NCBI GenBank assembly: GCA_031258135.1
Contig: JAIRNG010000083.1
Coordinates: 1-35,286, forward strand
DNA length: 35,286 nt
Source of the DNA: Mediterranea sp. (in: CFB group bacteria)
Lineage (GTDB): Bacteria > Bacteroidota > Bacteroidia > Bacteroidales > Bacteroidaceae
Direction: 5' to 3'
The notes beneath the pieces are model-generated. The model did no database searches. It worked only from the letters and a program-made list of their open reading frames with translations, and was not told where the DNA came from. Positions 610 through 35,098 of this stretch are shown one piece after another; position 1 is the first letter of the stretch, and every line of letters begins with the position of its first letter. The translations under genes and the position numbers were made by a program.

Positions 610-1356
610 ATGTATAAGAATTCTATCAAAGCATTTGCCTTTCGTTGCCTGACACTTCCTCCGTTTTTCGAGCTGGCGGACATCCTCGTGAATAAGGCGT
701 TGCCCGCCGACGTTGCGGACGAATTGGGACTCGGCGTGTCTTACCACAACGCGAAGCAATCGTTTGAGAAGCTGAAAGGCATCTTTCAGTATAATCCGGC
801 GATGCGACAAACGAAAGATGTGGTGGAAACCGTTACAAAAATCCGCCGGAAAATGATGCTGTTCAAAAGAATACTCCGCGAAATGGTGCTCGACACGGCA
901 GCGGGCGAACGGCTTGAAAACATTCGTCACATCAGATACATTGCGCATCCCTGTCTGGGAGAGATACAACACGGCGCGATGGCCGGCGTTGTAGCGAAAG
1001 CCCGGAAAATGGCCGATGCGCTGCGCACAACGGAGACCCTGCCGAAACTGACCGGGCTCGGACTGACCGCAATCGTGAACGACATTGCAACGTTGGCGGC
1101 CCAGGCCGACAACCTGCTGTTTCTGCGCGGCGAGGAAACGGCGTTCAAAAGAGCCCGGGGAACGGCCTGCAAGGTGCGCAAGACGCTGGAAAAGCAGCTC
1201 AGGTTCCTGTTTTACATCTACATCCCCGCCCATTATGTGGATGCCGCCGGACCGTTGGCCGCGAAATATGAACGGACCATCCTCGAAATCAACGGCACGC
1301 TCGACATCTACCGCCACCTCACCAAAGGCGGCAGCAGAAAAGGGTTTGAAAATTGA
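610..1356 (+). CDS. DUF6261-like hypothetical protein
   Basis: This is a 248-residue protein with no signal peptide or membrane segment. It is predicted to be largely helical and rich in Lys/Arg and Ala. The pattern GLTAIVNDIATLAAQADNLLFLR followed by a charged helix resembles the Bacteroidota family DUF6261, whose function is unknown. The match is from memory, so the family name is tentative. A 240-codon ORF lies antisense (595-1317). I prefer the plus strand because the protein reads like a known family and the start follows an AT-rich leader. The last two codons and the TGA stop lie inside the left inverted repeat of the next element, so the present C-terminus may have been set by that element. 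Confidence 0.55.
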   Translation: MYKNSIKAFAFRCLTLPPFFELADILVNKALPADVADELGLGVSYHNAKQSFEKLKGIFQYNPAMRQTKDVVETVTKIRRKMMLFKRILREMVLDTAAGERLENIRHIRYIAHPCLGEIQHGAMAGVVAKARKMADALRTTETLPKLTGLGLTAIVNDIATLAAQADNLLFLRGEETAFKRARGTACKVRKTLEKQLRFLFYIYIPAHYVDAAGPLAAKYERTILEINGTLDIYRHLTKGGSRKGFEN

Positions 1357-1699
1357 AAATTACGCTAAACTATAGAGACATGGAGGAAAAAGAGATAATA
1401 AAGAGGTAATAGAGGAAGTAGACACGGATTACACGGATTTTAAACACGGATAATAAATTATAAGGATGAATACGGATTTTCTGTGTTTAAAAAGATAAAA
1501 GCACTGCATTTAATCTGCGTAAATCCGCGTTAATCTGCGTTTCAAAAATCTTCATGAAATTGAAAAATCCGTGTAATCCGTGTAATCCGTGTCCCTTTCT
1601 TTTTATAAAGCGGATCAAGAGCGAAGCCTCTGTGCATCTCTCGTCTTCTTCATTAAAATTAAACCTGTGTCTCTGTGTTTAGCGTAATTTTCAATTTTC
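1348..1699. repeat. Intergenic element with nested inverted repeats (copy 1)
   Basis: The outer arms are an exact 23-bp inverted repeat: 1348-1370 begins GAAAATTGAAAATTACGC and 1677-1699 is its reverse complement. Further matches just inside (AGAGACA against TGTCTCT) extend it. An inner inverted repeat pairs 1422-1440 with 1575-1593, built from ACACGGATT words, and the spacer holds degenerate copies such as AATCTGCGT. No ORF of note lies inside. A second element of the same plan is at 31354-31555. It fills most of the gap between the DUF6261-like gene and cbiA. It may be a non-autonomous mobile or palindromic intergenic element, but no transposase or target duplication is visible. Confidence 0.8.
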
Positions 1700-1740: not shown

Positions 1741-3072
1741 ATGGATTCAATCACACGTCCGCAATTTCTGATTGCCGCACCCGCTTCGGGAGCGGGGAAG
1801 ACCTCCCTGAGCATGGGGCTGATGAAACTGCTGGCCCGTAAGGGAAAGAAAGTCCAGCCCTTCAAATGCGGGCCGGACTACATCGACCCCTATTTTCACG
1901 AACTCGCCGCAGGACGTCCGTCCGTCAATCTGGACACCTTTATGGCTACCGAAAGTCATGTACGGCAATTGTACCGCCGGTATTCGGAGGCGGCGGACAT
2001 CTGCATCGCAGAAGGCATGATGGGGCTGTTCGACGGATACGACGGCCGGAAAGGATCGGCTGCGGACATCGCCCTGTTGCTGGGTCTCCCCATCGTCCTG
2101 GTGATAGACGCAAGCTCAACGTCATATTCGGTTGCCGCACAGATCTACGGTTTCAGGAACTTCGACCCCCGGTTGCAAATGGCCGGAGTGATCTTCAACC
2201 GCGTAGGGTCGGAGCGGCACGAGGCGATGCTGCGAAACGCTTGTGGAGATGTGGGCGTGGCTTGTCTGGGGTGTGTCCGCCGCAATGAAGAACTTCAGCT
2301 GAAATCCCGTTACCTGGGACTCGACATCAGTCCTAACGAAAACGGGCAAACCATCGACGCATGGGCCGGATTTCTGGAAGAACAGATTGATCCGGATTTA
2401 CTGTTGGAACAGACCATGCGGCCGCTTCCCGCATGCGATGCGCCCGCAACGGAGCCGCAAAACGGCAGGTTGCGCATAGCCGTGGCAAGAAACCGGGAGT
2501 CATTCGCCTTTATCTATGAGGAAACGCTGACCCGCCTGCGGGAATTGGGAAAAATCATCTTTTTCGACCCGGAAACCACCGAAAGGCTACCGCGCGACAT
2601 TGATTTGCTCTATCTGCCGGGCGGATACCCGGAGAAAAGAGCAAGCCGGCTTACCGCCGGCGGCATGCACGGGGATATCCGGCAATACATCGGGAATGGC
2701 GGCCGTACCCTGGCCGAATGTGGCGGAATGATATACCTGAGCCGGGGAATCACGGACGAAAAGACATTCAGTCCCATGGTTGGCGTATTCCCTTTCACCA
2801 TCGCAACGGGAAAGAACCGGAGACGCCTCACCCTGGGGTACAGGCAGTTCGAGTATAACGGGCAACAGCTCCGCGGCCACGAATTTCACTACACGCAGTT
2901 CGGGGACGACCAGCTGTCCATACCCTCTGCGGCACAGGTGTACGATGCCATGGGACAGCCCGTCGATACGCCGGTCTTCCGGTACAAAAACGTCATCGCA
3001 AGCTACACGCACCTGTACCTCGGCGAGGTTGACATCCTGAAATTATGGAACGACAATCATAACCCCCGATAA
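1741..3072 (+). CDS. cbiA: Cobyrinate a,c-diamide synthase (CbiA/CobB)
   Basis: This enzyme amidates the a and c side chains of cobyrinate using glutamine and ATP, an early step of the late cobalamin pathway. The 443 residues show an N-terminal dethiobiotin-synthetase-like ATPase domain with P-loop APASGAGKTS (about 13-22), then CGPDYIDPYFH and AEGMMGLFDGYDG. The C-terminal glutamine amidotransferase domain has LPGGYPE, the nucleophile Cys327 in AECGGM, and His424 in SYTHLY. The start at 1741 is preferred. The upstream 22 codons of the ORF-track version lie in the repeat and promoter region and do not resemble the family. It heads a five-gene operon, with 3 nt to the adenosyltransferase gene. 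Confidence 0.95.
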   Translation: MDSITRPQFLIAAPASGAGKTSLSMGLMKLLARKGKKVQPFKCGPDYIDPYFHELAAGRPSVNLDTFMATESHVRQLYRRYSEAADICIAEGMMGLFDGYDGRKGSAADIALLLGLPIVLVIDASSTSYSVAAQIYGFRNFDPRLQMAGVIFNRVGSERHEAMLRNACGDVGVACLGCVRRNEELQLKSRYLGLDISPNENGQTIDAWAGFLEEQIDPDLLLEQTMRPLPACDAPATEPQNGRLRIAVARNRESFAFIYEETLTRLRELGKIIFFDPETTERLPRDIDLLYLPGGYPEKRASRLTAGGMHGDIRQYIGNGGRTLAECGGMIYLSRGITDEKTFSPMVGVFPFTIATGKNRRRLTLGYRQFEYNGQQLRGHEFHYTQFGDDQLSIPSAAQVYDAMGQPVDTPVFRYKNVIASYTHLYLGEVDILKLWNDNHNPR

Positions 3073-20461: not shown

Positions 20462-20526
20462 GAATACAAGCCGTTTTGCTATACTTTACCCAAAAAACAA
20501 AGACACGACTCCTACGCTGTATCTGT

Positions 20527-20765
20527 CAAAGAGTATAGGTCTGACTGCCAAAGAGTCTATGTCTGACTGCCAAAGAGTATAAGTCTGTATTATCAACATG
20601 CACATGTTAGTATGACTTACATGCACATGTTAGTATTACCTACATGCACATGTTGGTATGACCTACATGCGCATGTTGGTATGACTTACATGCGCATGTA
20701 GGTAATGCAAACTTATACTCTTTGGCAGTCAGACTTATACTCTTTGGCAGTCAGACCTATACTCT
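20527..20765. repeat. Large composite palindrome between cstA and the AAA ATPase gene
   Basis: The left arm (20530-20582) and right arm (20713-20765) are inverted copies matching at 51 of 53 positions. Each arm is built from direct repeats of a 22-bp unit containing TGACTGCCAAAGAGTATAA: two full units plus a partial one per arm. Weaker complementarity (9 of 12) continues inward. The centre is a separate 23-bp tandem array. The structure lies upstream of both divergent genes and outside their predicted promoters. It has no ORF of note and no spacer diversity. It could be a cruciform, a multi-site operator, a structured RNA or a non-autonomous mobile element. Confidence 0.9.
20596..20710. repeat. 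Five 23-bp tandem repeats, each with a 12-bp palindrome
   Basis: Five units at exact 23-bp spacing begin at 20596, 20619, 20642, 20665 and 20688. Each starts with ACATGCRCATGT; units 4 and 5 have the perfect palindrome ACATGCGCATGT, and units 1-3 have A at the variable position. Linkers are variants of TAGTATGACTT. A spacing of about two helical turns would place the palindromes on nearly the same DNA face. Confidence 0.9.
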
Positions 20766-20820
20766 CCGGGAATCCCCGGAAGTCCTTCGCCACATGCTGC
20801 GCTCCGGCATACCCTGCCGG
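20765..20820. other. Two short GC-rich hairpins beside the composite palindrome
   Basis: TCCGGG-AATC-CCCGGA (20765-20780) and CCGGCA-TACCC-TGCCGG (20804-20820) are perfect 6-bp stems. They directly follow the right arm. Neither has a T-run, so they are not clear intrinsic terminators. Apart from the repeats and promoters, I see nothing else in the 20402-20920 gap. Confidence 0.55.
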
Positions 20821-31324: not shown

Positions 31325-31353
31325 CGCAAAAGAAACGGTAAATTGAGAATTGA

Positions 31354-31555
31354 AAATTGAAAATTACGATGCCGCATGGGAATAGGGTTAAGGACACGGA
31401 TTACACGGATGAACGCGGATTTAAAGCCCCGTAGGGGGCGGTGGTGCAGATGGATTTTGATACAGTATCCTTAGAAAAGCTGCCTGCAAATCGGAAAGCA
31501 AAGCGGTGACCCACGCAAAACACCGACTCCAATGCGGCATCGTAACTTTCAATTT
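31354..31555. repeat. Intergenic element with inverted repeats (copy 2)
   Basis: The outer arms 31354-31377 and 31532-31555 are inverted copies matching at 23 of 24 positions. They contain ATTGAAAATTACG next to ATGCCGCAT. The inside has GACACGGATTACACGGAT, the same word as in the element at 1348-1699. The outer ends of both elements share the ATTGAAAATTACG core, while the adjoining arm sequence differs (CTAAAC against ATGCCGCAT). It occupies most of the 317-nt gap between the tsaC-like gene and the GH2 gene. I see no ORF of note in it. Confidence 0.8.
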
Positions 31556-31593
31556 AATAAGTACGTTTTGTGCTTTTGAACGTCTATTTGTAA

Positions 31594-34908
<3,315 letters not shown>

Positions 34909-34975
34909 CGCATAAAAAAACAGGGGACGGAAATTGACTTCTCCTGCGTTCGCTCACATTAGGGAACAGGCCTTT

Positions 34976-35098
34976 CTTCCCGACATCGTCGACGAGCCGC
35001 CACATACATGTTTTTTCTTCCCGACGGCGTCGGCGAGCCGCCACATACATGTTTTTTCTTCCCGACGCCGTCGGCGGGCCGCCACATTTATATAATTT
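34976..35098. repeat. Three 41-bp tandem repeats after the GH2 gene
   Basis: Units begin at 34976, 35017 and 35058. Each has CTTCCCGAC, a GC-rich inverted core (CCGACGGCGTCGG in unit 2, its reverse complement CCGACGCCGTCGG in unit 3), then GCCGCCACAT. Units 1 and 2 end ACATACATGTTTTTT and unit 3 diverges to TTTATATAATTT. A hairpin plus T-run resembles an intrinsic terminator, repeated. The stretch 34909-34975 shows nothing recognisable. The stretch 35099-35208 is AT-rich leader with only an imperfect -7-like TATCTTTA at 35146. Confidence 0.85.

Follow-up and report, generated by a model that had tools for sequence, protein, structure and literature searches.

The window, a stretch of 35,286 nucleotides from Mediterranea sp., carries between a DUF6261-like gene and cbiA an element that is probably a cargo-less, nested derivative of intergenic hairpin elements with inverted ends made of arrays of short tandem words. 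These elements resemble the intervening sequences (IVS) of 23S rRNA. We present the finding as an IVS-like hairpin element, with a new class possible. It is assigned in this way because IVS, heptamer repeats and genes for the IVS protein (IVP) in cas loci are all known, and a literature search, with most subscription journals outside it, found no paper that joins the three or that names word arrays at GxxExxY genes. Several points were computed directly: the architecture of the elements, the dependence of word length on cargo, the inward orientation of the words, the concerted arms, the filled and empty junctions, the abundance of cargo-less copies and the trimming of the DUF6261 gene.

A nested hairpin of four word families

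The preliminary description had read this region as a single element with an exact 23-bp terminal inverted repeat enclosing a second inverted repeat of words. The nesting and the exactness of the outer repeat are borne out, but its length is 25 bp: positions 1346-1370 (TTGAAAATTGAAAATTACGCTAAAC) match 1677-1701 perfectly across a spacer of 306 nt. Inside it lie two exact pairs formed by ACACGGATT arrays, 1422-1441/1564-1583 (20 bp) and 1421-1439/1575-1593 (19 bp). The region is made of several word-array hairpins rather than one transposon. Four tandem-word families, A to D, make up this mosaic, and their hairpins are nested in each other.

Features of the window, with coordinates and strand, are as follows.
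610-1356, plus: DUF6261-like gene, its C-terminus trimmed at the element.
1346-1370, plus: family A, left arm of the outer hairpin; GAAAATT heptamers (7 nt), IVP type; exact inverted repeat with 1677-1701.
1365-1385, plus: family B, left arm; CTAAACTATAGAGACATGGAG, decayed CACAGAG words, GxxExxY type.
1421-1441, plus: family C, left arm; two ACACGGATT words (9 nt), GxxExxY type, a paired inner arm.
1510-1545, minus: family D, single arm without a left partner; TTAATCTGCG words (10 nt), GxxExxY type.
1564-1593, minus: family C, right arm; three AATCCGTGT words, located by inverted repeats and TRF.
1617-1684, minus: family B, right side, containing CCTCTGTGCATCTCTCGTCTTCTTC and CTGTGTCTCTGTGTTTAGC; part of a stretch repeated at many places in the genome.
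1677-1711, minus: family A, right arm of the outer hairpin, with one extra word (1700-1711) compared with the left arm.
1717-1724, plus: possible -7 box of a cbiA promoter, TATCTTTG, a consensus match.
1741-3072, plus: cbiA/cobB, cobyrinic acid a,c-diamide synthase (NCBIfam NF002204, 416.5 bits).
31343-31556, no strand assigned: a second nested element, with A-type arms (33 nt, 88% complementary) and a C-type array inside.

Folded as RNA, positions 1340-1715 form a single long hairpin of -133.8 kcal/mol, against -71.7 +/- 5.3 kcal/mol for dinucleotide shuffles (z = -11.8), and none of 100 shuffles reached its stability. This hairpin is not a product of chance. The words are likewise in excess: CRCRRATNNCRCRRAT occurs 4 times in the window where 0.07 copies are expected, and GAAAATTGAAAATT, with one mismatch allowed, 5 times where 0.01 are expected. 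TRF reports a 10-bp array of TTAATCTGCG at 1510-1541 and a 9-bp array of AATCCGTGT at 1566-1592.

The outermost word of the outer hairpin is kept in the right arm and missing from the left, and the last part of the left arm consists of the first bases of family B (GCTAAAC). Family B words (CACAGAG/CTCTGTGT) lie directly inside family A. Their CTAAACTATAGAGACATGGAG stretch reads CTAAACACAGAGACATGGAG in other copies in the genome, and the right-side stretch (query 288-375) has its best genome matches, 89-95% identical, at more than 10 places. The outer GAAAATT arms are inverted arrays of 7-8-nt words, as in elements with IVP genes, and families C (paired) and D (one arm) have the 9-10-nt words and inward core CRCRRAK of elements with GxxExxY genes. 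No IVP gene lies inside the window element, and no target duplication was read at it.

The trimmed DUF6261 gene and the cbiA side

The reading frame at 610-1356 ends GGG TTT GAA AAT TGA, and its last codons and stop codon (TGA, 1354-1356) fall within 1346-1370, so that the left terminus does encode the end of the gene, as first described. The profile PF19775 (DUF6261) gives the window copy 18.8 bits, below the cut-off of 27 bits, and two paralogues 27.9 and 38.9 bits, above it. Ten DUF6261 genes in the genome have a readable C-terminus, the window copy included. When these C-termini are compared, eight of the nine complete paralogues continue into a YIDPN[AV] tail that is absent from the window copy, which stops where the element starts and takes its stop from the element's AAATTGA. 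No paralogue without an element ends at the last residue of the window copy; such a gene had been named beforehand as counter-evidence to the proposed trimming.

The preliminary description had ascribed the trimming to insertion. Trimming at the element edge is confirmed, and a deletion into a neighbouring element already in place explains it equally well or better. Deletion from the gene tail into an element behind the gene is the simplest account, at least as likely as insertion, because at least four intact DUF6261 paralogues have a GAAAATT-type (A-type) element directly behind the stop codon, beyond the window element there is no remnant of a DUF6261 tail, and the right arm of the element has one word more than the left. 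Under this account about 29 codons would have been lost and the gene fused to the adjoining GAAAATT hairpin, whose AAATTGA would then provide the stop. That the element inserted into an intact DUF6261 gene we consider possible rather than probable; this view agrees with the loss of the tail of the eight paralogues exactly from the element edge and is opposed by the same three observations that favour deletion.

A second DUF6261 copy (contig C19, locus L038) has also lost the conserved tail, and its C-terminus reads into repeat-like sequence beside a D array. Two of the ten readable DUF6261 genes in the genome thus appear to end in repeat-element sequence, which illustrates the way such elements change genes. 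Just upstream of the window copy, positions 215-513 hold seven 42-bp tandem units (AAAAATGAGACAATACAAATAGATTATATCTTTCTCATAGAT).

On the other side, the element had been said to abut the cbiA promoter. The -7 consensus of Bacteroidetes promoters is TAnnTTTG, which TATCTTTG at 1717-1724 fits and may represent. This box lies 15 bp past the right arm and 16 bp ahead of the likely cbiA start at 1741; the putative promoter near the element is a consensus match only.

Relatives, their proteins and their words

The search for further copies returned 109 partial matches to the window element in its own genome, a draft that is 82% complete, and the stretches around the matches were examined. Many are small palindromes whose words differ but whose arms match, among them those on contigs C80, C9 and C149. 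No insertion sequence sharing these ends was found among the matches examined in this draft. The cargo genes of the genome are two for GxxExxY and one for IVP (23S-rRNA intervening-sequence protein). One GxxExxY gene lies between D arrays (ACGCAGATTA, 10 nt; contig C61) and the other between C arrays with the same words on both sides (ACACGGATT; contig C49), and the IVP gene lies between A arrays (GAAAATT, 7 nt; contig C113). B-type words surround GxxExxY genes in other genomes, such as Bacteroides finegoldii and the genome of locus L046. The genome contains a single Y1_Tnp gene, truncated by a contig end, and a fragment. This Y1 transposase fragment (L013, contig C37:513-641) runs straight into a D-type word array.

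IVP, or S23p, is a four-helix bundle (Pfam PF05635) that matches the solved structures 2gsc and 2rld. The first of these is reported to be a pentamer of four-helix bundles, homologous to Avd of diversity-generating retroelements (PMC4990558, PMC10053308). GxxExxY is a PD-(D/E)XK protein (PF13366/TIGR04256; Pfam name PDDEXK_3) in which D, ExK and QxxxY are invariant across eight diverse members; RecB-type nucleases conserve the same three motifs. Its AlphaFold model has a pLDDT of 59, and a PDB search with this model gave no significant match. Neither IVP nor GxxExxY contains a Y1 domain.

Of 248 Bacteroidota genomes, 122 have PF13366 and 194 have PF05635, frequently with many copies. The 200-nt flanks of 63 GxxExxY and 145 IVP loci from Bacteroidota were searched for tandem arrays by their period, a procedure that misses unevenly spaced arrays and makes the fractions that follow lower bounds. 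Arrays occur in 57 of 140 and 72 of 150 IVP flanks, with a period of 7 or 8 in 124 of the 129 arrays; in 17 of 126 GxxExxY flanks by a strict test, with periods of 8-10; in 3 of 54 antitoxin control flanks, with periods of 10 and 12; and in none of the 50 flanks of 25 Bacteroidota Y1_Tnp (RAYT) loci. In the period spectra, IVP has its peak at 7, with the multiple 14, and GxxExxY at 9-10; the RAYT and control spectra are flat there. Arms match better within a locus than between loci (p = 4e-23 for GxxExxY, 7e-23 and 6e-20 for IVP, 0.28 for the control), although some orthologous insertions are counted more than once in these word statistics and the loci are not all independent. The core CRCRRAK occurs 2.19 times per GxxExxY flank and about 0.1 times in controls, a roughly twenty-fold difference, and at the 63 GxxExxY loci 276 copies point inward and 51 outward. 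It is not enriched at the 25 Y1_Tnp loci. Protein and word length go together: IVP with words of 7-8 nt, GxxExxY with words of mostly 9-10 nt and the core CRCRRAK. The similarity of IVP proteins predicts that of their words weakly (r = 0.16, p = 0.003), mostly through pairs more than 65% identical.

The pattern extends to eleven named-locus genomes, mostly outside the Bacteroidota and including Thiobacillus, SAR324, Desulfosarcina, Chloroflexi, Polyangiaceae and an archaeal bin, where arrays occur at 33 of 59 IVP flanks (period 7 in 23, period 8 in 5); several of these genomes are metagenome bins and possibly misassigned. A 400-kb stretch of another genome contains 7 heptamer arrays, against 0 in one shuffle, and no further cargo family was found in that stretch. 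Spread by phage was considered and rejected: the count for GxxExxY was none in 50,697 phage records, eight plasmid records, four viral contigs. Cargo-less hairpins were also seen at individual junctions. At the groES-groEL junction of another genome (L141) about six copies of a heptamer hairpin of 80 nt stand in tandem next to an IVP gene, and CACAGAG-type hairpins occur in human gut Bacteroides between lptB and der in B. finegoldii (L384) and between gmd and the fucose synthase gene in B. ovatus (L385).

Orthologous sites reveal how the arms change. In a Flavobacterium-like genus, an IVP element occupies one gene junction in many species. Its words vary by species (for example GGTTCAAA and GATTCTAA) and agree between the two arms of one element, for which the similarity is 0.641 vs 0.427 (p = 0.0005); the agreement persists when the divergence of the gene inside is controlled for (partial Mantel r = 0.55, p = 0.001). 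Both arms share a word type in this series and are not exact mirrors. Other species have cargo-less heptamer hairpins at the junction, one has an IVP element of very different words, and one has a 31-bp spacer alone, without arrays. Similarly, the GxxExxY element of contig C61 lies between radA and an FAD-dependent gene, and in Bacteroides finegoldii a GxxExxY element with other words, whose protein is 52% identical, is found at the same junction. Filled radA-FAD junctions measure 478-590 bp, and empty ones (1-32 bp) occur in a congener of the window genome, in Parabacteroides distasonis and in four further genomes. Target duplications, which the preliminary description had suggested seeking at empty sites, did not appear: none was read between filled and empty junctions, whose intergenic bases are too diverged to exclude a short one. 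Elements can persist at one site throughout a genus, and for this reason some may be old and static.

Known systems and possible origins

IVS of 23S rRNA with S23p are known selfish elements, and in the Coxiella IVS tandem GACAGAT heptamers stand ahead of the ORF (PMC4990558). Like the IVS of Leptospira and Coxiella, the elements described here are small and have inverted ends around one IVP (PF05635) gene, and the inverted ends of the window element form a long stem. Unlike IVS, they occupy intergenic junctions rather than rRNA (the window element lies between the DUF6261-like gene and cbiA, not inside a 23S rRNA gene), their arms are arrays of 7-8-nt words, a second family with GxxExxY has the same design with 9-10-nt words, and many copies have no gene. 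Heptamer repeats have been reported as TAACTGA in Beggiatoaceae, cyanobacteria and Bacteroidetes and as GGGAATC in Xanthomonas and Nostoc (PMC4679880, PMC4692102). They too are intergenic tandem 7-mers, with 70 convergent (inverted) pairs in Xanthomonas (PMC4679880, PMC4692102). In those papers the repeats are not linked to IVP and no mechanism of mobility is given, whereas here arrays of period 7-8 are tied to IVP genes.

A full element has one small gene, for IVP or GxxExxY, between two inverted arrays of short tandem words. We propose that both arms would pair into one long stem, as RNA or single-stranded DNA, that the encoded protein would bind the word array with one unit per word, and that the protein, together with host factors, would move or copy the hairpin into gene junctions. 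Gene-less copies and nested composites such as the window element may have been moved in trans or be decaying. In the window, an IVP-type GAAAATT hairpin with GxxExxY-type arrays inside it is located at the 3' end of the DUF6261 gene. The fixed word length of each protein suggests that the array is read by repeated protein units. Since two different protein families share the design, the driver could also be a third, host factor.

Tentatively, mobile hairpins of this kind may form a new class with two lineages, one with IVP as its agent and one with GxxExxY. The protein would read arrays of short words of fixed length, and the pairing of the arms, not their exact sequence, would be what is preserved; heptamer repeats, 23S rRNA IVS and IVP genes in CRISPR loci would then be traces of this class. 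IVP genes have been recorded inside cas loci (PMC3936711; also listed in PMC10910872), as can be explained by the occurrence of the elements at junctions between adjacent genes of diverse kinds. The finding joins four loose ends: the unexplained heptamer repeats, the IVS of 23S rRNA, and the two protein families IVP/S23p and GxxExxY.

It is unlikely that no mobile element is involved and that polymerase slippage at gene ends produced the 7-10-nt repeats, which then persisted as hairpins serving as terminators or as RNase III or mRNA-end signals, with IVP and GxxExxY as passengers. In favour are an earlier attribution of the bacterial heptamer excess to slippage (cited in PMC4692102), the location of the elements between stop and start codons, and the differing number of words in the arms. 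Slippage, however, predicts neither a protein-dependent word length nor inverted pairs, inward polarity, a phylum-wide core or matched change of the arms.

Still less likely is a classical MITE that derives from an ordinary DDE insertion sequence, is non-autonomous and depends on the transposase of that sequence for movement in trans. The window element does have terminal inverted repeats without a transposase gene, and the perfection of these repeats, the high copy number, the small size and the nesting are all in character. MITEs, including BrickBuilt of Porphyromonas gingivalis with its 23-nt units (PMC4596501), are likewise short, non-coding, intergenic and multi-copy, with inverted ends and tandem units. 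In the elements described here, by contrast, the units measure 7-10 nt, the arms themselves consist of the repeats, and the relatives with a gene encode IVP or GxxExxY and not transposases. The ends are variable tandem words instead of fixed sequences, both arms change in concert over time, and no target duplication was seen.

Palindromes of the REP/REPIN kind moved by a Y1 (RAYT) transposase are very improbable: such palindromes are also small and high in copy number, RAYT flanks contain inverted repeats (p = 5e-5) and the genome has its Y1_Tnp gene and array-bound fragment, but the Bacteroidota Y1_Tnp flanks, free of tandem word arrays and not enriched in CRCRRAK, led us to reject RAYT as the driver, and the Y1 domain is absent from both cargo proteins.

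Two further repeats of other kinds occur in the window. At 20523-20774, inverted tandem units of 22-23 bp form arms of 117 nt that are 84% complementary and recall the BrickBuilt MITE of Porphyromonas gingivalis. Near the window end, GC-rich 41-bp tandem units lie at 34973-35087, downstream of a 1100-aa ORF.
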